Assembly: GCF_031085155.1 (NCBI RefSeq)
Contig: NZ_JAVHUL010000011.1
Span: 18,350 to 82,349, forward strand
Direction: 5' to 3'
DNA length: 64,000 nt
Origin: Mesonia profundi
GTDB lineage: Bacteria; Bacteroidota; Bacteroidia; Flavobacteriales; Flavobacteriaceae
Shown here: in pieces, positions 53,827 to 64,000 of the stretch
How the letters are laid out: every line of letters starts with the position of its first letter
How positions within the stretch are numbered: position 1 is the first letter of the stretch
Notes under the pieces: model-generated
The model's input: only the letters and a program-made list of their open reading frames with translations
Database searches by the model: none
Told to the model about the DNA's origin: nothing
Translations under genes and position numbers: made by a program

Positions 53827-53908
53827 GCGGGCGTGGTGGAATTGGTAGACACGCTAGACTTAGGATCTAGTGCCGCGAGGTGTGAGAGTTCGAGTCTCTC
53901 CGCCCGTA
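53827..53908 (+). tRNA. tRNA-Leu (anticodon TAG)
   Basis: 82 nt. Acceptor GCGGGCG pairs with CGCCCGT (one G-U). The anticodon stem CTAGA/TCTAG encloses CTTAGGA with TAG, a class II variable arm TGCCGCGAGGTGT follows, and the T arm is GAGAG/CTCTC. CCA is not encoded. The last 12 bases of the gene are part of the 13-bp repeat that bounds the integrated element; the gene is kept intact by the integration. Confidence 0.95.
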
Positions 53909-53909
53909 C
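53897..53909. repeat. attL: 13-bp attachment repeat at the tRNA-Leu 3' end
   Basis: TCTCCGCCCGTAC, identical at 63830-63842 (attR). On this side it is the end of the T arm and the acceptor of tRNA-Leu, so integration rebuilds the gene. Start-to-start distance 9,933 bp. Confidence 0.85.
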
Positions 53910-53914
53910 AAAAT

Positions 53915-53957
53915 AAAAAGCTAACTATGTTATTATTAACTAGTTAGCTTTTTTTGT
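53915..53957. terminator. Element-borne terminator behind tRNA-Leu
   Basis: AAAAAGCTAACTA pairs with TAGTTAGCTTTTT around a 13-base loop. It can terminate the tRNA (plus) and ietS-like (minus) transcripts. It replaces the original terminator, which was displaced to 63846-63878. Confidence 0.75.
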
Positions 53958-53965
53958 TTTATACC

Positions 53966-53982
53966 TTGTACTATATTTGTAC
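53966..53982. promoter_or_regulatory. Putative integrase arm-type site near attL
   Basis: TTGTACTATATTTGTAC: two TTGTAC half-sites 11 bp apart. The motif recurs at 63683-63699 with 15 of 17 bases identical and in the same orientation. Confidence 0.5.
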
Positions 53983-54001
53983 GTTGTCTTAGAAAAACAT
54001 A

Positions 54002-56464
54002 TTACAATTCGATCTCAATTTCATTTTCTATTTTTATTTCTTCATAGATCTGAACATCATCATTTATTGCTTCAATAGAAACTGTAAAAGCATAAGGAAT
54101 CTCTTCTTTATTTACATCCCAACCTTTATGCCCTTGAACAGAAAAGCTTATTTCTTCAGATAATTCATAAGCCTTAATTATAACCCAGTCTTTTTGTAAA
54201 GAACTATTATTTCTACTCAAACCTTTAACACTTCCCCAGTCTTTATTTTCCCTTATTTTCCACTTAACAACTTGTTTTCCGTTTTCTTTTTCATAGTCTA
54301 CTTCTTCATCTTCAATTACCCTTAAAGCTCTTTTCCTAAATTTATCTAATGGCTCATCAAAATAAGAGGCTGTCCAGTCTAACCATGTTGATAAATAAGA
54401 TTTTGTCTTTTGTCTGGTTCTTCTGACTTTTGCAGTAAATGATAATGTAACTTCAATCAATATATCATATTCATTCGCTTGATTTCGTATGCTTTCAGGT
54501 ATTTTTAAAGAATATATATGCCCTTCCTCTGCTCGAATTTTTGATGTATTATAAAAAGTTACTCGTTGTTCTGTATTTCTAGTTACTCTTTCCAGTGAAG
54601 GAATTCCGTATCCAAAATGCTTGAGACTACTCGTAGTAGGATTAAAAAAATGTGCTTCTGGTAGACGAGCTCCTTGAGCAACTAATGCTCTAATCAAGTT
54701 GTTGTTTTCTTTTGGATAAAGCTCTTTCAGTTTTGCTACAATATTTGAAACTTTAGGAGTTGAAAATGAAGTACCACTAGTATCCTGTCCATATGCAGAA
54801 CCTCCATTTAAAGTTGACCTTACAAGTTCGATCGATGTCTCTTCTATTTCCCTTACTGAATTGACGCCATTTTTTGATCTTACAAATCCTCCACCAAATT
54901 CAACTACATCTGGTTTTATCATCCCCCATATTCCATTTCCAATTCTTGAAAATGCAGAAATATCATTCTCCTTTCCAAGGGAAACCCAATTATCATCCTC
55001 AAAACTTGAATGATTTATAGAACCTACAACTAAAGAGAAACAGCTTTGTCCAGGGTTAGCAATTCTGCAAAAAGCTTCATTTAAATAATTGGGGTATTCT
55101 AAACCTTCATTAATATAACTTCGTATTTTAGGTCTGTCTATATTTCCACTGGATATTATAAATATTTTATTTTTTTCATGTATTAATAAGTCTAGAGCGG
55201 CAGCCCAAGTAGACATATGCTTAATCCTAAATGGGAACTTTGAATTAATAGACATATTAAATAAATCACAATCCTCATTATCATTAACAATGTCAAACAT
55301 TAGCTCAGCAGGAAACTTATTTTTAAGCTGGTTATTATCATTTAAAACTCTCAAATTCCTGATTCTACAAGGTAATTGATATGGAGAAGACAGACCATTA
55401 ATTCCTAACGGATATATTATTGCGCCAGCAACTTTAGTACCGTGCCCTCCCTCAATAACTTTATCTGCTGTTGATTCATCATTATGAACATAACTTTTAG
55501 ACTTTGAACTGTCAATAGCTAAGCTCAAATATTTATGACCTTCCATTATCCCGCTGTCAATAACGCCAACTTCGGCAGATTCTTCACTTGGAGGTAATAT
55601 ATCTATATTTTTTTCATCAATTTCAAAACTTTCTCCAACTCTACCTTTAATAATATCAACTTCTGTTACTTCGAATACAAACGGATAATTAATTACCAAA
55701 TCCTTTAAGCCACTACCACTAATTTCTAATTCACAAGAAAAGCTATCCTCTAAATCAATAAAGCTACTGGTTCTACTACCATAAATTTTAATGAAATTAT
55801 CAAAATGAGTTTCTCTTTCCATCCATAAATCATCTCTTTCTATCTGCTTTTGGCGATATTTTTCAAGCCTCTTAATACCACCTTGTTTTGTGGGGTCAGG
55901 CTCTTTCCCTAATGGTTTATCAAAAGCTACACCTACTTCTACCTTATAAATATCTTTTTCATTAATATGAGGCCATTTATTATAAAGTTCTTCAGATAAA
56001 ATGTGCTTTGGCTTCCAATCTTTTCTCTCCCCAGTTATAATCTCCCATAATTTTGCAATTTTAGCAGTACCGTGACCCGAATGTACAAAACCATTAATCT
56101 TTTCCTCTAAAGCTCTTAAACCATCATTCGATGCTCCAACTATAAAGCCATCATCCTCCTCTGAAATGATCTCTATCCCAAATTTTTGTAAATCAAAACT
56201 AATATCGGATAATAAATCAGGGTCAGTTTGTAGAAATATAGGGATAATATCCTTATCCAACGGTGCGAGTTCTTGCTCCTCTCTCTCACTCAAGTTAAGC
56301 GTCCAAGATTCCCTTAGGTCAATAGTTCTTTTTGATAAATATGAACTGTGCTTTTTACGGTTTTTTTTATTCTCTTTAGTTCTTTCATTTTGACCACCAC
56401 CACCATGGAGCCTAGGATTACCTTGTATTTTTTGAACAAATTTTAAATGAGGAAGTCTATCCAT
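54002..56464 (-). CDS. ietS: Subtilisin-like (S8) protease, IetS-like
   Basis: 820 aa, much longer than a bare subtilase. Basic N-terminus (about 20-45), an N-terminal region of about 290 residues, then the S8 catalytic domain: Asp303 in V-I-D-S-G-I, His341 in G-G-H-G-T, oxyanion Asn441 in S-S-G-N and Ser566 in G-T-S-F-S-T-P. About 220 C-terminal residues follow, apparently beta-rich. No signal peptide, so it acts in the cytoplasm, unusual for a subtilase. It follows the AAA gene after 6 bases. An AAA ATPase plus cytoplasmic subtilase is the ietAS pair, first described as a plasmid-stability toxin-antitoxin-like unit on Agrobacterium Ti plasmids and later listed among phage-defence systems. 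The triad is complete, so it should be active. Confidence 0.85.
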   Translation of the reverse strand: MDRLPHLKFVQKIQGNPRLHGGGGQNERTKENKKNRKKHSSYLSKRTIDLRESWTLNLSEREEQELAPLDKDIIPIFLQTDPDLLSDISFDLQKFGIEIISEEDDGFIVGASNDGLRALEEKINGFVHSGHGTAKIAKLWEIITGERKDWKPKHILSEELYNKWPHINEKDIYKVEVGVAFDKPLGKEPDPTKQGGIKRLEKYRQKQIERDDLWMERETHFDNFIKIYGSRTSSFIDLEDSFSCELEISGSGLKDLVINYPFVFEVTEVDIIKGRVGESFEIDEKNIDILPPSEESAEVGVIDSGIMEGHKYLSLAIDSSKSKSYVHNDESTADKVIEGGHGTKVAGAIIYPLGINGLSSPYQLPCRIRNLRVLNDNNQLKNKFPAELMFDIVNDNEDCDLFNMSINSKFPFRIKHMSTWAAALDLLIHEKNKIFIISSGNIDRPKIRSYINEGLEYPNYLNEAFCRIANPGQSCFSLVVGSINHSSFEDDNWVSLGKENDISAFSRIGNGIWGMIKPDVVEFGGGFVRSKNGVNSVREIEETSIELVRSTLNGGSAYGQDTSGTSFSTPKVSNIVAKLKELYPKENNNLIRALVAQGARLPEAHFFNPTTSSLKHFGYGIPSLERVTRNTEQRVTFYNTSKIRAEEGHIYSLKIPESIRNQANEYDILIEVTLSFTAKVRRTRQKTKSYLSTWLDWTASYFDEPLDKFRKRALRVIEDEEVDYEKENGKQVVKWKIRENKDWGSVKGLSRNNSSLQKDWVIIKAYELSEEISFSVQGHKGWDVNKEEIPYAFTVSIEAINDDVQIYEEIKIENEIEIEL

Positions 56465-56470
56465 AAAATG

Positions 56471-57466
56471 TTATTTGTTTAAAGCTGAATTCTCAACTAG
56501 AGCTTTATTCAAATCATTAATGGATATTTCGCTATTTGAGTCTATTACAGATCTTTTAGCTGCATCATTGGCTATCTTTACGATTATAGCATATGAAAGT
56601 CCAACCATTTTATCTGCATAATCATTGATATTTATATCTCTACTCAGTTTAAGAGCTGAAAAGGATATTTTAAGTAAAGCAACTATTTCTTCCAAAGAAG
56701 GTCGAGGAAGCTCAATAAAATCATCAAACCTTCTAAACAAAGCATCATCTAAGCTATCTTCAAGATTAGTTGTAGCCACCAATAAACCCTCTCCATCATA
56801 TTCTTCTAATAATCCCAATAGAATATTTACTATTCTATGTATCTCGCCTGCATCATTTGAATTGACATTTCTCTTCTTTCCTATAATATCGAACTCATCT
56901 AACAGTAAAACACAAGGGTAGTTTCGAATACTATCAAACAATTTTTGCAAGTTAGAAGCTGATTCTCCTAAATAAGAAGAGATAATTGAATCAAAACGGA
57001 CTTTATAAAAAGGCAAACCTAAATCCCAAGCAATTTTTTCTGCGGTCATACTTTTTCCACAACCAGAAGCGCCATATAATAAAATTTTTTTTCGCGGTTT
57101 TAATCCATGATGTGCTAATCTCTCTTTAGCTAGGTATTCTTTTTCAATTCTTAATATTTTACTTTTTACAGTAGATGAAAGAACCATTTCCCGCCTTAAG
57201 TTTTCATGCTCGATATGATTAGCTAATGGAAGTTTATATCTCCTATCAGCAGGAATTTTAAAATCTGCTTCTTTTGTTAGTTTAAAGGGTGTGCTATATT
57301 CATATTTAGAAAGATTATTTTCCAAAATTAAACCTAATTTTCTTGCTAATTTTGAATGTCCCTTTTTTTCCTCTTCTTCTATGATGCTATAAGCAATTCT
57401 AACTAAAGGTGCTTTTTTGTCTCCTTCAATCGATTTAAATAATCTTGTTAGCAGTGCTTGGTTCAT
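56471..57466 (-). CDS. ietA: AAA+ ATPase, IetA-like
   Basis: 331 aa. N-terminal helical domain (1-80), then AAA+ with Walker A G-A-S-G-C-G-K-S (132-139), Walker B L-L-L-D-E-F-D (187-193), sensor 1 A-T-T-N (231-234) and arginine fingers R-R-F-D at 245-248. The nearest look-alikes are spastin/katanin- or FtsH-like AAA domains that remodel proteins. It would control or feed the protease encoded next. A minus-strand TAACTTTG box at 57482-57489 fits its -7 element. First gene of the two-gene cargo operon, preceded by a long gap. Confidence 0.82.
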   Translation of the reverse strand: MNQALLTRLFKSIEGDKKAPLVRIAYSIIEEEEKKGHSKLARKLGLILENNLSKYEYSTPFKLTKEADFKIPADRRYKLPLANHIEHENLRREMVLSSTVKSKILRIEKEYLAKERLAHHGLKPRKKILLYGASGCGKSMTAEKIAWDLGLPFYKVRFDSIISSYLGESASNLQKLFDSIRNYPCVLLLDEFDIIGKKRNVNSNDAGEIHRIVNILLGLLEEYDGEGLLVATTNLEDSLDDALFRRFDDFIELPRPSLEEIVALLKISFSALKLSRDININDYADKMVGLSYAIIVKIANDAAKRSVIDSNSEISINDLNKALVENSALNK

Positions 57467-57489
57467 TAGTATTTTTTTTTACAAAGTTA

Positions 57490-58049
57490 TTAAATTAGAG
57501 AAAGAAATTAGTTTTTTTTTCCCTTTCCTTGATTATGAACAATAATTAATAAAAGGTATTAGGTAAAACTGGTTCTAAGAAACCTTAAAAATGAATGTAT
57601 TTCAATCTTCTACAAAAAAATTGAATAAAAATCACCTTATGAAAAACTTGACAAGTTTAAGTTTGAAAAATTAATTCAAGTCTACATAGATTTAAGCAAT
57701 TAAAGCATGCTGTTAAGTATTTCAAGCACGTCTAAGCTACTCATATAGTATAAGCCGTTAAGGGTGTTGCTCTGCAATTTATTATTATACCATCGCAATG
57801 ATTGACGCTTAATTTAATCGATGTTTAGTGGGATTGCTCAATAAAACTTTTAGTTACTTTGCCGACTTTTATAAGCTGTTGCAATATGTTGCGCGCAGCA
57901 ATGTTGATTTATTCTACACGGTTTTGAAATCTTGTTATAGATTAAAGTTATAACATTACGAATTTGTATAGATTTTTCTTATTTAGTTCTATTGTTATTA
58001 CTTGCAGTTGCTGCTAAAAACATAAATACTGTCAATTATATAACAAACA
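57490..58049. other. Long gap without recognised genes inside the element
   Basis: About 560 bases, AT-rich, without a gene-like ORF on either strand. It contains some small inverted motifs (TTGC, GCGC, A, GCAA near 57890) but no convincing RNA gene. It separates the replication-type genes from the ietAS-like cargo and could hold regulatory or RNA functions that I cannot identify. Confidence 0.4.
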
Positions 58050-58050
58050 A

Positions 58051-58084
58051 AAAAAGGAGCGTATCCAATTAAGGTCGCTCCTTT
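58051..58084 (-). terminator. Terminator of the small-ORF transcript
   Basis: AAAGGAGCG pairs perfectly with CGCTCCTTT around a 14-base loop; on the minus strand it is followed by TTTTTTTG. Ends the transcript that includes the two small ORFs. Confidence 0.75.
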
Positions 58085-58105
58085 AATTTAACAAATAAGC
58101 AAGGT

Positions 58106-58249
58106 TTATTTTTTGCTCATCATAATGGTTAAAGTACAATCATCTACAACGATGTTATTTTTTACTTTCCATCCTTCTTTGAGATGCTTATTAATTTCTT
58201 TCTCAATATCGATGATACTGTTCTTTTGAATAATCTTTATTTCTTTCAT
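58106..58249 (-). CDS. Small protein, second of a coupled pair (DUF1737/DUF4177-like shape)
   Basis: 47 aa. The core I-E-K-E-I-N-K-H-L-K-E-G-W-K-V followed by two short beta strands (N-N-I-V-V-D-D, T-L-T-I-M-M) has the helix-then-GW-strand layout of DUF1737 and DUF4177 proteins. Its ATG overlaps the stop of the upstream small gene (TAATG), so the two are translated together. Function unknown. Confidence 0.6.
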   Translation of the reverse strand: MKEIKIIQKNSIIDIEKEINKHLKEGWKVKNNIVVDDCTLTIMMSKK

Positions 58250-58407
58250 TATAGATTTAATTTTACTCCAATTTGGAATTCATTATACTCGTTTTTTGTT
58301 ACTTCCGTAATAGCTTCATAGCTTTTATTAAAGTGGTTTACAATTTTTTTTTCTAGTATTGCTCTACTGCTAGATGTCAATATTTTGTATTCAGGTGCTA
58401 AGGTCAT
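58249..58407 (-). CDS. Small protein, first of a coupled pair
   Basis: 52 aa. It begins E-Y-K-I-L-T-S-S-S-R-A-I-L-E-K-K-I-V-N-H-F and ends in a strand F-Q-I-G-V-K-L, again a beta-alpha-beta layout like the next gene, without the GW. Start codon ATG at 58407 lies just beyond the stop of the 252-aa gene at 58410, so the three genes probably form one transcript. Not recognised further. Confidence 0.55.
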   Translation of the reverse strand: MTLAPEYKILTSSSRAILEKKIVNHFNKSYEAITEVTKNEYNEFQIGVKLNL

Positions 58408-58409
58408 AA

Positions 58410-59132
58410 TTATTGGATTGTTAGTATTTTGTTATAGTTAAAATTCACTTCGTTTAAATCTCTTGTTAGACCTTGCTTTCCCGTTTGATGTCCGTGAAAG
58501 AGATTACTTTCATCATACAAATAATGCTTAATCGGAGTATAAACATCTTTATACGCCAAATCCATTTTCTTACCAAGCTTGACAAATTGTTTAATATCGT
58601 TCATCATTTCAAGCTGCTTGTCATTGCTTGCATAGGTTGTAAATAATTCAGTATCTAAATTCACTTCAATGTTTCCATTTTTAAAGACTAACAAATCTAC
58701 TGGTTTGAACGATACTTTTTTTGGTGCATCATCTAAATACTCTTTTAAGCTTGGATTCCTTGAAGCGTTATTTTTGCAGTACTGATAAAACTTAGTATTG
58801 TAAGCGTAAAACTCACGTTGGCTAAATGCTCGGGCGTTGTAAATTTCTTCTAGCTTTTCTAGTTCTGTTACGTCAAACTCTAACATCTCAATATACTTTT
58901 CATAAGAAAGCATTTTAACGAAACCTTCTTTTTGTTGATTATGAGCTTTGCGATGATGATTGTGAAATTCATCTAAGAAATTACCTTGAATTAAATCCTT
59001 GGGCTCACACTTAACTTTTAATTTGCTAAGTTCATTTTGAGCATCTATTAAAATATTTCCGACTTCTAATATTCCGTCTTCCTCTCTCTTATGTTCTGAT
59101 TGGTTAAACTCTAATTTTTTTTTAATTGACAT
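58410..59132 (-). CDS. Unrecognised element protein next to the iteron-like repeats
   Basis: 240 aa from the ATG at 59132 (12 more residues if 59168 is used). It is highly charged and helical, without motifs I recognise, and contains N-H-H-R-K-A-H-N-Q-Q and a C-terminal H-Y-L-Y-D-E-S-N-L-F-H-G-H-Q. It is the first gene after the origin-like repeat cluster, so replication initiation or regulation is possible, but this is inference from position alone. Confidence 0.6.
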   Translation of the reverse strand: MSIKKKLEFNQSEHKREEDGILEVGNILIDAQNELSKLKVKCEPKDLIQGNFLDEFHNHHRKAHNQQKEGFVKMLSYEKYIEMLEFDVTELEKLEEIYNARAFSQREFYAYNTKFYQYCKNNASRNPSLKEYLDDAPKKVSFKPVDLLVFKNGNIEVNLDTELFTTYASNDKQLEMMNDIKQFVKLGKKMDLAYKDVYTPIKHYLYDESNLFHGHQTGKQGLTRDLNEVNFNYNKILTIQ

Positions 59133-59286
59133 TTGTGTGATTTTTAGGAGCTGCAATGTTATATTCAATTGCCGCTCAATTATTTTATTAATTGTTTAAT
59201 TCTGATTTAAGGACATATTTATTCTGAATAATAACTAAGGAGCATTATTCCATTTATAATATTTCATTCTTTTAATTTTTTAGCTT

Positions 59287-59468
59287 GTAGGGCAAGTAGG
59301 ACAGTTTCGCATATACTTTATATATATATATATTTTTACATGTGTATATTTTTAAAATTGTCCTACTTAACCTACGTTTTTGTAGGACGTGTAGGACAGT
59401 TCTCAACTTTCTTTTTAAAATTGTACGCCTTTTTTAAATCTTTCTGAAAATTGTCCTACTTGTCCTAC
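59287..59468. repeat. Four pairs of 9-bp iteron-like repeats around a TA-rich tract (putative origin)
   Basis: The unit GTAGGACAA/G occurs as head-to-tail pairs in alternating orientation: 59287-59304 plus, 59358-59375 minus (second unit degenerate), 59382-59399 plus, 59451-59468 minus (both perfect). Spacings are 53, 6 and 51 bp, so the arrangement is nearly symmetric. A run of TA repeats (59318-59334) sits between the first two pairs. Paired iterons next to an AT-rich unwinding region, beside a primase-helicase gene, is the classical layout of a replication origin. It may also act as operator for the 252-aa gene. Confidence 0.65.
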
Positions 59469-59533
59469 TTGTTTAAGTTTGCTGAATTTGATGTCAAACT
59501 AGAAGTTTTGCTTTAAAAGCATTAGTTTTAAAC

Positions 59534-61006
59534 TTAGTTTTTGAGTTTCTTAAAAGCTACTTTCGCAACGCCTGCGCTTACTCTGGTATCAACTTCATAG
59601 CCTTTAAAATTAGCCCAAATTTGAATCCATCCACTAACCACACGACTCCTAACTCTATCATCTGGATTGTTAATTTCCTCTCTAAGTTCGTTGGCTATAT
59701 CTTTCAATAAATAGTACGTACCAAGTTCTTTGTAATCAGATTCCATTAGCTCAACAAAAGTTTTATTGGTTTCGTTTTCGAGCTTCTGCACGCTTAATTC
59801 GGGACTATTATATTCAACTAAACCTTTCTTAAAATACTGCTGTAAACAGTAAATCATAAATGAGTAGAAGCGTTGATATTCCTTATCGTTCCATTCCAAA
59901 AAGAACAAGTTTCCAAAGTGCTTTTCAGGCTTGTTAGTGCTGCTGAAATGATTATTCAATAGTACTAGATGTTTTCTATCGCTGAAGCTGCCTCCGGTGT
60001 CTGATAACGTGTAATTTGTTGTAACTGCTATCTTTGGACTGTCTTCAAAGTTTAATATTTCTTTAAGTTGATGCTTTCGCTCTATGGTCATTTTATCAGT
60101 AATTACTGCAAATAAATCTTCAAAACTGAAGTTCTGTTGAACGTCCTGTAATACGAACAAAACCGTTTCTATATCAATGGACTGATAGACAAATTTATCC
60201 CTCGCTAAATCTAAGTTTTTGCCATTTTGTTCTACCACGTTTAGAAGCTGTTCCATTCCTTTTATAATTATACCCTTACCACTTCTTCCGTTTGCGGTGT
60301 TGGTTGCCTGACTTGAAATATCGCTCAATATTACTACCTTGGCTAAACCTGGGTTCTTATGACGGTGCAGCATATAACCTATTGAAGTTATTACGTTCTT
60401 AAAATGCTTTTTCTCATTAGTAGATAGCTTTAGAAATTCATAAAACTGGCTTTCCTTAAAGTCTTTTCGATGCTTAAAATCTTGCTTAATAATCTGACCT
60501 TCAAGAATATATTGGTTAGGAATTATTTTACTTAGGCTTGAGTAGCTGTAAGACTTGGAGTTATCTTTATCAACAACGACAAATACATTCTTAAAAAATA
60601 CTATCGCTGAATTTTTGCTGTCCTTATACCTTGTGGCTTCAATCTCTGGCAAGCTGCCTAAAATTGCTTTCTTTATCATTAGTAAGGTTTCTCCTTCCTT
60701 AATGAAACAACTGGTAAGATTATCGTTTTTCTGCTCTTCAATATACTTTAGAACGTAATTAAAAACTTCTTGCGGACTGTAAACTTTAGCAATGTTATTT
60801 TCAAATTTTACAGCCAACCATTTTCCAGAATAATGAATGATTCGAAAACCATTCAGTTCTAAAAATTTTTTAAGTTTTGCGATGTCAGTTACAAAGTTTC
60901 CTCTATCGTTACGGCGCCAAAATTCAAGTGATTTAAATTTTGTATATTTACGAACGGATTTTATTTCCGAAGCTGGTTTAGAGCTATGGGTTTTCTTTTT
61001 ACTCAT
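59534..61006 (-). CDS. SF3-type primase-helicase (DUF5906-like)
   Basis: 490 aa. The C-terminal half is a P4/SF3-like helicase: Walker A N-G-R-S-G-K-G (239-245), Walker B V-L-F-V-L-Q-D-V (282-289) and motif C K-I-A-V-T-T-N-Y. The N-terminal 200 residues hold the usual D5-like/DUF5906 region but no recognisable primase catalytic triad, so priming activity is uncertain. Such proteins drive replication of satellites, plasmids and integrative elements. Lies between the HTH gene (8 bases) and the origin-like repeats. Confidence 0.8.
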   Translation of the reverse strand: MSKKKTHSSKPASEIKSVRKYTKFKSLEFWRRNDRGNFVTDIAKLKKFLELNGFRIIHYSGKWLAVKFENNIAKVYSPQEVFNYVLKYIEEQKNDNLTSCFIKEGETLLMIKKAILGSLPEIEATRYKDSKNSAIVFFKNVFVVVDKDNSKSYSYSSLSKIIPNQYILEGQIIKQDFKHRKDFKESQFYEFLKLSTNEKKHFKNVITSIGYMLHRHKNPGLAKVVILSDISSQATNTANGRSGKGIIIKGMEQLLNVVEQNGKNLDLARDKFVYQSIDIETVLFVLQDVQQNFSFEDLFAVITDKMTIERKHQLKEILNFEDSPKIAVTTNYTLSDTGGSFSDRKHLVLLNNHFSSTNKPEKHFGNLFFLEWNDKEYQRFYSFMIYCLQQYFKKGLVEYNSPELSVQKLENETNKTFVELMESDYKELGTYYLLKDIANELREEINNPDDRVRSRVVSGWIQIWANFKGYEVDTRVSAGVAKVAFKKLKN

Positions 61007-61014
61007 AGCTTTTT

Positions 61015-61284
61015 TTATTTATTTAGTTGCACGATTGCAGCTTCTACTTCCTCGCGCTTATAATAGACACGTCCGCCAATTTGATACGCTTGTATAATAC
61101 CTTTCTTTGTCCAATTATGAACGCTTGAAACGTCGATTTGTAGCATCTCAGAAACATCGTGTCTGGAAAGATAAACGGATTGTTGTTTGGGTCTGAAATT
61201 GCTTTTAATTTCTTGCAGTTCGTTCCTTAGTGCCTTTAACTCGTTTGTAAGGCTGTCGGGTAATGTAAATTGAATTGTTTGCAT
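61015..61284 (-). CDS. HTH_17-type excisionase/AlpA-like DNA-binding protein
   Basis: 89 aa. After an N-terminal coiled region, the C-terminal half is a MerR-like winged helix: Y-L-S-R-H-D-V-S-E-M-L-Q-I-D-V-S-S-V-H-N-W then G-x-I-x-A-Y-Q-I-G-G-R-V-Y-Y-K-R-E-E-V. Such proteins act as excisionase or as activator of the element's replication genes. 8 bases before the primase-helicase gene. Confidence 0.85.
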   Translation of the reverse strand: MQTIQFTLPDSLTNELKALRNELQEIKSNFRPKQQSVYLSRHDVSEMLQIDVSSVHNWTKKGIIQAYQIGGRVYYKREEVEAAIVQLNK

Positions 61285-61303
61285 AACTTATTGTTTTTAA
61301 ATG

Positions 61304-61336
61304 TTATACTGCAAATCTCAATTTTCATTATACTGC
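61304..61336. promoter_or_regulatory. Direct repeats upstream of the HTH gene
   Basis: TTATACTGC at 61304-61312 and 61328-61336, 24 bp apart. Candidate autoregulatory or excisionase sites; no further support. Confidence 0.35.
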
Positions 61337-61397
61337 GATAAAAGTGGTTGAAAATGTGTTTTATGTGTTTTTTCTGTTTTTTTAAACTTTATTCAAG

Positions 61398-62285
61398 CTA
61401 TTTATTGGAAAGATTATTTTTAAAGGCTTCAAAGTGGGAATTCAAAGTGGGTAAATGTTTATTTTCATAGCTTGGGGTTTTATCGGTGTTTGTGATTTCA
61501 ATTTCATAATGTTTAGCTAATTCTTTATAAGCTTTTTTTGTTAACCTTTTATGCTTTTCAAACTTGATGCTATTATTTAATTCGTTATTGAAATAATGCC
61601 AAATATTCATAAACCGAGTTTTATCTCCGTGTTTTGAAACTTTCACATAATTTTCGATTAGATATTTGAAAAAATCATAACCCTTTTCATTAAATAAATT
61701 GGCATCGTATAAAGGATGCTTTGTCTCCTTATTGTTTATATCAGAACTTTTTTTACCTTCTTTCTCTTTATTACTGCAAGCTTCGTTTGTTTTTACAGTT
61801 GCTGCTTTGCAAGCTTCATCAATCTTTTTAGAAATTTCAGATGCCCGTTCTACATATTTGACCTCTTTATGCTCTTGTGGGTATTCAGGTTTTAACTCAA
61901 AATCAAAAGCATCTATCCATTCGTCTAATTCCTCTTTTGAAAAGCAATTAATATTATTCTTCACTTTGTTTATGTCTGCAATTCTTCTGACGATATTATT
62001 TAGTTTCTCCTCTTTTAAATAAGTACGCATAGCATAATCCTTTGCCTCGTTTGTAACACGTTCAATTTCAAAAAATAAACCTTTAGCTTCTTTGTCGCTC
62101 ACCATATTCATATCGCTATTTTTAATACGGTCGTATAATTCTTGTAGTCTGCCATAAGCATCATCTTTGTAACTGTATAAAAGTAAGTTTGAAATTTCTT
62201 CTTTTGTCTTTTCTTCTTGTGGAAATATTTCGGTTTTAGTACTTGGCATTGCTGTTTTATTATTTTGGTCTTTATTAGCTTTCAT
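61398..62285 (-). CDS. Unrecognised element protein
   Basis: 295 aa, charged, with a Lys/Glu/Asn-rich linker (about 165-195) between two helical regions. The C-terminal part reads F-F-K-Y-L-I-E-N-Y and N-I-W-H-Y-F-N-N-E. I cannot assign a family. Position between integrase (12 bases) and the HTH gene is where many Bacteroidota islands carry a gene of unknown function. Confidence 0.6.
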   Translation of the reverse strand: MKANKDQNNKTAMPSTKTEIFPQEEKTKEEISNLLLYSYKDDAYGRLQELYDRIKNSDMNMVSDKEAKGLFFEIERVTNEAKDYAMRTYLKEEKLNNIVRRIADINKVKNNINCFSKEELDEWIDAFDFELKPEYPQEHKEVKYVERASEISKKIDEACKAATVKTNEACSNKEKEGKKSSDINNKETKHPLYDANLFNEKGYDFFKYLIENYVKVSKHGDKTRFMNIWHYFNNELNNSIKFEKHKRLTKKAYKELAKHYEIEITNTDKTPSYENKHLPTLNSHFEAFKNNLSNK

Positions 62286-62297
62286 AACTGCTGCTTT

Positions 62298-63644
62298 TTA
62301 CTGGTTAGATGCGTTTCTAATAACGTTTAATTGTGGAATGGGTTTAGGCTTGCTTTTCTTTTTACTAAAGCTGTCAAACGCTCTCTTAGCTTTATCATAG
62401 TCTGGTCTTACTATGTAGTTTAAAAACTCTTTCTCTGTTGTGTGACCTGTGAAATACATTAGGTCTGGCGTTGGTACGATACCATAGTTTAAAGTAGCAA
62501 ATGTCCTTCTTCCAATATGAGACGTTATAAGCTTCCATTTTTCAAAGTCTCCAATTACATTTCTATAATCATACTTTGTAGGTTTTTGTCCCTCTGGAGC
62601 TATACACTCACGTTTCTTACCTTGACAAATTGTATTAATTCCAGCTTCTTTGCAAACTAACTTTATATAATCATTATATTTTTGGTCTGAAATTGCTCTT
62701 GGAAATTCTCCTTTTCTTTTATCTAAAATGGTTTTTATTTCCTCCCTTAAAGGCAAGAACATTTCGTGTGCTGTTTTTACTTGTGTAAATATTATAAACG
62801 AGCGGTTATTTTCATCCTTAGTAATCATACTAGAAGTAAAACGCATAAAATCAGAAATACGCTGCCCTGAATAAATACTTATCAAAAGCCAATCCCTTGC
62901 ATTTTCCAAATAGTCGTGTTTTAATTTTACATTTTCAATTTGCTCTATTTCAGCTTCTTCAAGATATAGCTTGATAGCTTTCTCTTTGCTTATCTTAAAA
63001 GTTCGCTCATTTAAAACCTTGCTAACCTCTAAACCTCTGCGTTCTGCATAACGGCAAATGGTTCTAACACGTTCAAATTCCTTATTTTGAGTATTAACAG
63101 AGTATTGCTGCTGCTCTGAATATGCAATGTAATCAGCCTTAAAGTCATCGTTAATGTCCTTAATCTTGTATTTCTTAGATATGCTCTCCTCTAGTCTTAT
63201 TAGCTTATTGCGTGTGGTAATTATTCGCTTTCTTTGGTTATCCTTTAACTCATTAAGTGCTTTTTTATCAGCTAGGTAAGAATCAATGAAGTCAACTAAA
63301 AAAACAGGGTATTTCTTTTCTTCTGTTTTTGGTGAGTAGTAATTTTTCAACGCTAATTTAAGCCAGTCTTTATCTTTTTCATTAGGTGCATCTTTTTCGT
63401 ATTGCTTTAGTATAAATTCCTCTAAAGGTTCAATACTGTCATTTACTCTTTTAATTTCATTCTTATCATCCCCACTTAAACCACGCTGCTTTTTTCTTGC
63501 AGTATTCCAAAACTCTTTGGAGACGTGAATTTGCGTATTTGCTTCAAACTGAAAAAATTTGCCCTCAATTCCTTTGTCTTGTAATCTTACTTTAAGTGCT
63601 GCTTTTTCTTTTTGCGAACGATATAAAAAATATACTCTAGCCAT
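62298..63644 (-). CDS. int: Tyrosine recombinase (integrase)
   Basis: 448 aa. N-terminal arm-binding and SAM-like core-binding domains (about 1-215), then the catalytic domain with Arg262 in S-G-Q-R-I-S-D, His376 and Arg379 in H-I-G-R-R, His401 in G-H-T and nucleophile Tyr410 in F-L-N-Y. All catalytic residues are present, so it should be active. Located next to attR. Catalyses integration into the tRNA-Leu 3' end. Confidence 0.93.
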   Translation of the reverse strand: MARVYFLYRSQKEKAALKVRLQDKGIEGKFFQFEANTQIHVSKEFWNTARKKQRGLSGDDKNEIKRVNDSIEPLEEFILKQYEKDAPNEKDKDWLKLALKNYYSPKTEEKKYPVFLVDFIDSYLADKKALNELKDNQRKRIITTRNKLIRLEESISKKYKIKDINDDFKADYIAYSEQQQYSVNTQNKEFERVRTICRYAERRGLEVSKVLNERTFKISKEKAIKLYLEEAEIEQIENVKLKHDYLENARDWLLISIYSGQRISDFMRFTSSMITKDENNRSFIIFTQVKTAHEMFLPLREEIKTILDKRKGEFPRAISDQKYNDYIKLVCKEAGINTICQGKKRECIAPEGQKPTKYDYRNVIGDFEKWKLITSHIGRRTFATLNYGIVPTPDLMYFTGHTTEKEFLNYIVRPDYDKAKRAFDSFSKKKSKPKPIPQLNVIRNASNQ

Positions 63645-63682
63645 AATTGGTTGTTTAGTTTATTATAACAAAAATAGCTAAG

Positions 63683-63703
63683 TTGTACTAAATATGTACT
63701 AAA
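63683..63703. promoter_or_regulatory. Putative integrase arm-type sites near attR
   Basis: TTGTACTAAATATGTAC, the partner of the site at 53966-53982; GTACTAAA is repeated at 63685 and 63696 (11 bp apart) and occurs inverted at 63794-63801. Confidence 0.5.
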
Positions 63704-63805
63704 AACTTCATTTGATTTAAACTTATTTCTATTTCATTCCCTATAAAAATCTTTAAAACTACTGCTAATAAAGGGATTGAAAGCTTAAATACATTTAGTA
63801 CAGTT

Positions 63806-63829
63806 TAACACAATGCATTATTTGTGTTA
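63806..63829. repeat. Perfect inverted repeat abutting attR
   Basis: TAACACAA and TTGTGTTA around an 8-base spacer, ending exactly one base before the 13-bp repeat. Good candidate for a recombinase or excisionase binding site. Confidence 0.5.
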
Positions 63830-63842
63830 TCTCCGCCCGTAC
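63830..63842. repeat. attR: 13-bp attachment repeat
   Basis: TCTCCGCCCGTAC, identical to the tRNA-Leu 3' end at 53897-53909. Not part of a tRNA here; it marks the original end of the tRNA gene before integration. Confidence 0.85.
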
Positions 63843-63845
63843 TCA

Positions 63846-63878
63846 AAAAGCTTCAACTTAATCGTTGGAGCTTTTTTT
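63846..63878 (+). terminator. Original tRNA-Leu terminator, displaced by the element
   Basis: AAAAGCTTCAAC pairs with GTTGGAGCTTTT (one T-G pair) around a 6-base loop, followed by T-rich sequence. It begins three bases after attR, as expected for a terminator that followed the tRNA before insertion. Confidence 0.75.
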
Positions 63879-63931: not shown

Positions 63932-64000
63932 TCAAAAAGTTGTGGGATTTTAGTTTTATGCAAAAATTGTGGATAGTCTAAATAGGAAAAAATCTACTTT

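Follow-up and report, generated by a model that had tools for sequence, protein, structure and literature searches.

Small integrative elements of several kinds bear on the locus described here, an element inserted into a tRNA-Leu gene of Mesonia profundi. In Staphylococcus aureus pathogenicity islands (SaPIs), the packaging (phage-hijacking) module lies behind the origin; staphylococcal cassette chromosome (SCC) elements use Ccr recombinase, and NBU1 integrates at the 3' end of tRNA-Leu. Phage-inducible chromosomal islands (PICIs) are typically around 12 to 15 kb in size according to PMC6092414, whose screening criteria also ask for an integrase, a replication module, and a master regulator arranged in conserved order, for the absence of phage structural and lytic genes, for an att site that prophages never use, and for phage-dependent induction with infectious particles that package the island. 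Small helper-dependent elements are known carriers of anti-phage systems (PMC9122126, PMC8791490). For the Riemerella anatipestifer 10K island, excision to a circle has been demonstrated experimentally (PMC6764341). This island is the nearest system that our literature searches returned, and they returned no description of the Flavobacteriia family to which the Mesonia element belongs. PMC12324425 concerns another kind of element.

The window, a 64-kb stretch of M. profundi DNA whose position 64000 is the contig end, contains at 53897-63842 an element of 9,946 bp between identical 13-bp direct repeats. We lean toward the view that this tRNA-Leu element works like a phage-inducible island, one that would excise, replicate, be carried by a helper, and hold IetAS cargo. 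We interpret it as an integrative replicon of PICI/SCC-like type that a helper would spread. In the proposed cycle, the integrase would excise the element as a circle, and a superfamily 3 (SF3)-type helicase would start copying at repeats just behind its own gene. A helper would then take the circle into other cells for reinsertion, and the gene pair matching IetAS would travel as cargo. The principal features are as follows:

53827..53909, plus strand: tRNA-Leu(TAG), the integration target (ARAGORN; Rfam tRNA at 53827-53908)
53897-53909, plus strand: left attachment (att) core copy, the last 13 bases of tRNA-Leu(TAG) (sequence search)
53968..53982, no strand: left GTAC-N7-GTAC, predicted arm-type integrase site (sequence and relatives)
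54002..56464, minus strand: IetS-like subtilase of 820 aa, cargo (PADLOC, Pfam, NCBIfam)
56471..57466, minus strand: IetA-like AAA ATPase of 331 aa, cargo (PADLOC, NCBIfam)
58410..59132, minus strand: p252, orphan core protein of 240 aa from ATG (relatives in 8 of 31 elements)
59287..59468, no strand: predicted origin of replication with four alternately oriented GTAG-N5-GTAG sites (sequence)
59534..61006, minus strand: SF3-type helicase of 490 aa, predicted self-loading initiator (phrog_28855; structure model)
61015..61284, minus strand: HTH_17 protein of 89 aa with a helix-turn-helix (HTH), excisionase- or AlpA/MerR-like (PF12728; TIGR01764)
61398..62285, minus strand: p295, variable slot behind the integrase (relatives)
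62298..63644, minus strand: tyrosine integrase of 448 aa (PF13102, PF00589, phrog_1)
63685..63699, no strand: right GTAC-N7-GTAC, predicted arm-type integrase site (sequence and relatives)
63830..63842, no strand: right att core copy (sequence search)

A first-pass annotation of this DNA had proposed a complete tRNA-integrated element with 13-bp repeats at both ends, one of them the tRNA 3' end, a replication module, and defense-like cargo. That proposal is supported: the repeats lie at 53897-53909 and 63830-63842, the main frames and tRNA-Leu(TAG) are where it had placed them, and the cargo matches an anti-phage system. The core sequence TCTCCGCCCGTAC occurs at 53897 and 63830 only in the whole window. 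The minus strand encodes all eight main genes, in the order integrase, p295, HTH, helicase, p252, and cargo, within which the order of integrase, HTH_17, and helicase is conserved. The GC content is 31.3% in the element versus 35.8% in the window left of it, and the right flank is short, with 158 bp between the right repeat and the contig end. This is a complete element of a coherent family, undescribed as far as the searched literature reaches.

The integrase frame is complete, and R262, K290, H376, R379, H401, and Y410, which we take to be the tyrosine-integrase motif, are present by eye, in agreement with the intact enzyme described earlier. The protein scored 29.6 bits, over the cut-off, with PF13102 and 18.7 bits, below the cut-off, with PF00589, and it matched phrog_1 in PHROGs at 4.8e-24. 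An integrase scan of genome contigs gave 62 loci, given here as L numbers, and 60 of them (L071 and L073 left out) were run through ARAGORN. A tRNA or transfer-messenger RNA (tmRNA) was present in the stretch at 26 of the 60: tmRNA at 11, Leu-TAA at 4, Ala at 4, Leu-TAG at 3, Ser at 2, and Gln and Phe at 1 each. An exact 13- to 21-bp copy of the tRNA or tmRNA 3' end lay near the integrase start in 23 of these 26. L013 had a copy with one mismatch in 14, and no copy was found in L060, where the tmRNA is on the opposite side of the integrase, or in L069, at a contig edge. Bounded elements numbered 25, the Mesonia element included, and measured 5.0 to 11.4 kb. The repeats of the Mesonia element are beyond chance, because the same end geometry recurs in these relatives.

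The ends share a second signature. Measured from the integrase end, GTAC-N7-GTAC lies at a distance of 138 to 167 bp in 15 of the 25 bounded elements; measured from the tRNA end, 10 of the 25 have it at 84 to 90 bp, and 8, the Mesonia element among them, have it at both ends. In total, 26 such sites were at ends and 1 was internal, whereas shuffled ends contained 0.125 on average and 2 at most. These sites tie both ends to a single recombinase and are probably arm-type integrase sites. The integrase and the att layout suggest excision and reinsertion.

The helicase matched phrog_28855 at 1.7e-50 over the second half, positions 316 to 714 of 804 being matched. Longer relatives bear BT4734-like_N, PriCT_1, or zinc-finger domains; in the Mesonia protein, primase domains ahead of the helicase were not found and only the helicase half is present. 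The label "SF3 primase-helicase" given to it at first therefore holds for the helicase and not for the primase half. In comparisons of the structure model, the SaPI5 primase-helicase ranked best by VIA Z, and the modeled protein has the SF3/D5 fold that SaPI/Cch2-type self-loading initiators require. The iteron-like repeats reported alongside it are real: four ordered GTAG-N5-GTAG sites (59287-59299, 59363-59375, 59382-59394, and 59456-59468) flank an AT-rich stretch at 59300-59362, and elsewhere in the element only one such site exists, at 55764. They lie directly 3' of the helicase gene (gene end 59534), as in SaPI/Cch2-type replicons. From the modeled fold, the repeats, and the SaPI/SCC precedent, we infer that the element replicates.

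To place this replication gene in its family, 31 elements, comprising the 25 bounded ones and 6 of which only the integrase end is known, were grouped into single-linkage protein families. The helicase family of the Mesonia element was present in 8 of the 31, a D5/DUF5906 family in another 8 (Pfam checked for two members), and an unnamed family, c8, in 7, being located elsewhere in L067. DUF3987 was present in 2 (one member checked) and additionally in L023 next to the helicase. L019 has a Rep_1 protein (47.1 bits; cut-off, 33.2), L013 has an ATPase that is RecA-like by eye and had no PDB sequence match, and the replication gene was not recognized in 4 of the 31 (L029, L044, L055, and L063). 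L014 (6,144 bp; host, Psychroflexus planctonicus CGMCC 1.12931) and L032 (6,009 bp) carry no cargo and consist of just five genes, for the integrase, the slot protein, the HTH protein, the replication ATPase, and p252. The Mesonia element and L013, from Mariniflexile gromovii KCTC 12570, use the same tRNA and share 75% identity in the integrase, 78% in the HTH protein, and 38% in p252, whereas similarity between their replication proteins is undetectable. The sequences show that the relatives are alike in their ends and in the kind of integrase but carry different replication genes, and that the replication gene has been exchanged between family members, most clearly between these two. A wider proposal is doubtful: that the family is a separate satellite-like lineage of Flavobacteriia, in which one integrase/att/HTH chassis swaps SF3, D5/DUF5906, DUF3987, Rep_1, and (by eye) RecA-like cassettes, carries anti-phage cargo, and in one branch has p252 at the place of the SaPI hijacking module.

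Two hairpins bear on what occupied the site before insertion:

53911..53960, plus strand: hairpin with T-run, element-borne, directly behind the tRNA (fold, -18 kcal/mol; z, -6.3)
63845..63876, plus strand: hairpin outside the element (terminator scan; fold; alignment to genus relatives)

The first-pass annotation had pointed to tRNA-Leu(TAG) loci of related genomes as the place to look for an empty site, and genus relatives do carry the tRNA without element genes behind it. All 15 retain the peptidase locus, and the tRNA lying behind it agrees with that of the element at 65 to 83 of 83 positions; the lowest value, 65, is that of L140, whose tRNA may be another tRNA-Leu. Neither the integrase profile nor any other of the 13 family profiles matched in any of the 15 within the 8.2 to 12.3 kb behind the tRNA. 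The 13-bp att pattern was not found in the stretches of L140, L147, and L148. The right-flank hairpin resembles the DNA downstream of the tRNA in the genus relatives, L135, L138, and L139 showing this most clearly. In 12 of the 15, a simple alignment score was better for the right flank than for the inner hairpin; in 3 (L144 to L146) it was worse. This is moderate evidence that the right flank is the original sequence downstream of the tRNA, moderate because both compared sequences are hairpins with T-runs. The outer hairpin is likely the former terminator of the tRNA, and the inner hairpin is likely its replacement. This terminator reading rests on the folds of these two chosen hairpins: a terminator scan found 2 sites versus 4.1 in shuffles, a count that gives no support, and the loop of the inner hairpin exceeds the limit of that scan, which hence did not detect it. 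In L143 (G005, contig C18), the tRNA-Leu att core occurs twice, 130 bp apart, and may mark a leftover or an earlier or second use of the site.

The two-gene AAA-protease cargo seen at first proved to be an adjacent AAA ATPase and subtilase, matched by PADLOC to IetA (4.5e-73) and IetS (8.6e-51), the latter also by Pfam Peptidase_S8. The genes are adjacent, as the IetAS system demands, and the protease motifs are in place by eye. The cargo presumably acts in anti-phage defense. PADLOC was also run on the large cargo-side genes, not all cargo genes, of 11 relatives, and together with the Mesonia element, 6 of the 12 gave clear matches: type I restriction and PDC-S15 in L015, a type I methylase and specificity subunit in L016, GajB and SduA in L034, a type II methylase and a weak nuclease in L024, and SWIM_XIII in L027. 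L029 gave a weak match. No match was obtained in 5 of the 12 (L012, L013, L019, L023, and L062), L013 having a NACHT match below the cut-off. L012, L015, L016, L023, L027, and L034 are without a far boundary, and their genes may be outside the element; among the 6 bounded elements, only the Mesonia element and L024 gave a clear defense match. Defense cargo as a rule of the family is thus only partly borne out: restriction or other defense genes are frequent in the relatives but not universal.

The HTH gene called earlier is present, its product scoring 41 bits with PF12728 (cut-off, 27) and 19.7 bits, below the cut-off of 28.8, with TIGR01764; it also gave weak HTH-only matches to phage excisionase and terminase-small-subunit families. 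For the proteins first listed as 252 and 295 aa, family searches found no relaxase or other family, and the start of p252 was corrected from TTG to ATG, giving 240 aa. No family was found for p295 in Pfam, PADLOC, PHROGs, or NCBIfam scans, and its clear relatives are in L015 (35%) and L037 (30%). A search of 5.8 billion proteins for p252, with 4,508 candidates scored, gave 9 at an E value of 0.001, the Mesonia protein included. Among 397 family genomes, 4 matched: the Mesonia genome, G187, and two weak partial cases. G187, a genome of the same family as the Mesonia one, has in its stretch the exact integrase gene of Mariniflexile maritimum, which belongs to Flavobacteriaceae. Plasmid records gave no match. 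In the 8 elements that have it, p252 accompanies three kinds of replication ATPase and always follows the ATPase gene; in the Mesonia element, it is located between the predicted origin and the cargo. Its structure model is confident and had no fold match. As a working guess, p252 may be a partner specific to the element, acting in its replication or in its dealings with the helper.

Several observations weigh against a helper-carried island of the phage-inducible type. No packaging, capsid, or interference gene was recognizable in the element proteins, and no primase gene was found in the element. By Foldseek E value, the helicase model is nearest to African swine fever virus (ASFV) PrimPol and mpox E5, with SaPI5 35th. 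Exact GTAG-N5-GTAG sites number 3 in L015, 2 in L014, 1 each in L016, L027, and L034, and 0 in L012, and L023, with the same helicase family, has different repeats. p252 is missing from L023, L027, and L034 beside the same helicase family, and the helicase is therefore independent of it. Neither p252 nor p295 matched in 50,697 phage records, and in IMG/VR scans p252 was not found and integrase and helicase relatives reached only 26 to 30%. The cargo, a putative IetAS pair, is called divergent because its scores are far under the NCBIfam equivalog cut-offs (subtilase versus IteS, 121.5 bits against 900; ATPase versus IteA, 203 bits against 510). In the host genome, one terminase model, PF03237, had no match, and contig C5 holds a conjugative region encoding TraG, TraM, DUF4138, and DUF5712 proteins and a coupling protein. 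The term "satellite" used at first is accordingly not established for the element, which is a variant of integrative replicating islands.

That conjugative region, with its TraG-type ATPase, also speaks for a different route, on which the element, without a relaxase of its own, would excise, perhaps replicate, and be mobilized from a hidden origin of transfer (oriT) by a resident conjugative element that supplies both relaxase and type IV secretion system. We take the DUF5712 protein on C5 to belong to a relaxase family and DUF4138 to be TraN-like. The region (L166, L167, G000) also has a single-stranded DNA-binding protein and a large gene set between its two parts. The integrase family occurs in elements of mixed makeup as well, the Riemerella 10K island having an IntN1-like integrase (PMC6764341). 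However, the few known Bacteroidetes integrative and mobilizable elements (IMEs) covered by PMC5704250 encode their own relaxases, and scans of the eight main proteins at Pfam, PADLOC, PHROGs, and NCBIfam thresholds found no relaxase, capsid, or packaging family, as the first-pass annotation had stated. A relaxase like that of canonical NBU-type IMEs was likewise not found by Pfam, PHROGs, and NCBIfam sequence scans, and no search for an oriT was made. The relaxase model PF03432 had no match in the host genome, its control being positive in only 1 of 14 genomes. We consider mobilization of this kind unlikely.

Less probable still is a plasmid-like integrative replicon concerned chiefly with its own maintenance, for which excision and replication would serve stability and reinsertion and transfer would be passive, by transformation or generalized transduction. 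Integrase, helicase, and repeats are complete but no transfer or packaging gene was found, helicase relatives are present in three plasmid records (29 to 30%), and PMC7581432 proposes replication for stability in SCC. Yet close integrase relatives (75%), in Aequorivita and Mariniflexile, and the many different target genes suggest frequent movement. A decayed or frozen genomic island retained for its defense genes is the least probable reading, since the main frames are complete, the att cores identical, the paired end sites kept, and the integrase and protease motifs in place by eye, although the host genome has only one high-identity integrase copy, its three other matches being at 25 to 27%.

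For the preferred helper-carried island, we infer that a helper exists. A phage, at somewhat under an even chance, seems a more likely helper than conjugation, which we rate as a lesser prospect. Phage records contain helicase relatives in 5 cases (28 to 32%) and integrase relatives in 39 (25 to 30% among the matches listed), and no phage structural or lytic genes were found in the eight main proteins by Pfam, PHROGs, or NCBIfam. Four phage records from human fecal samples (MT836782.1, MT836675.1, MT839178.1, and MT836511.1), 5.7 to 10 kb long with integrase relatives at 25 to 28%, have a size that fits small integrative elements. The IMG/VR contig 3300012252_000039 (L076), classed as viral, has at its start an integrase relative (30%) and behind it HTH, c8, and c6 genes, and so begins with one of the elements of this family. 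L061, L066, and L068, whose integrases are more distant (29 to 31%), have family c17 in common; in L061, the c17 protein matches DUF6046 and phrog_5233 (baseplate hub), a phage-tail link in a tRNA-integrated mini-element.

The remaining features of the element are the following:

58106..58249, minus strand: small open frame of 47 aa (by-eye comparison)
58249..58407, minus strand: p52, short open reading frame (its only relative, a weak one, is in L012)
63806..63829, no strand: imperfect inverted repeat TAACACAA...TTGTGTTA adjoining the right att core (sequence)

By eye, L027 and L034 each have, behind the helicase, a frame start similar to that of the 47-aa frame, and TAACAC-like bases occupy the place equivalent to the inverted repeat in L012 to L016. 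p52 matched Pfam DUF6558_C at 18.8 bits, below the cut-off. Between the core and the cargo lie about 640 bp of AT-rich DNA (57467-58105; about 29% GC) that contain no main gene and are perhaps the cargo insertion point. Promoter-like sites (52 versus 43.8 expected) were uninformative.

If the element replicates and moves, it would offer a compact model with 6-kb five-gene minimal forms and directly readable ends. The Mesonia element and L013, which have the same integrase but different replicons, would then form a natural pair that shows cassette exchange, and p252 would be an entry point to the link between element and helper.

Compared with known systems, the Mesonia element shares with SaPI5 and other PICIs, as described in PMC6092414 and PMC7581432, an integrase at one end, an HTH regulator or excisionase-type protein, accessory genes at the far end, and the absence of phage structural genes. 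Like SaPI5, it has its own replication protein, of the same fold by its model, with repeats just behind the gene (PMC7581432). It differs in that no terS, capsid-remodeling gene, interference gene, or divergent repressor was seen in it, its helicase is without the primase half, and at 9.9 kb, in a family of 5.0 to 11.4 kb, it is smaller than a typical PICI. The NBU1-type mobilizable elements of Bacteroides share the tyrosine integrase and excisionase-type factor but encode a relaxase (PMC5704250), and none was found here. With IetAS, the cargo shares an AAA ATPase gene next to an S8 protease gene, each with a PADLOC match, and differs in its distance from the NCBIfam equivalogs. The Riemerella 10K island is likened to it by description, not by gene comparison: both are about 10 kb, belong to Flavobacteriales, and have a tyrosine integrase and a tRNA site, the Riemerella site being tRNA-Arg with a 53-bp repeat (PMC6764341). 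SCC with the Cch2 helicase, in turn, is integrated and has a D5-like self-loading helicase with repeats directly downstream (PMC7581432), as the Mesonia element does, whereas the Mesonia element has a tyrosine integrase acting into a tRNA, and a CCPol/MP-type primase pair was not recognized in it.
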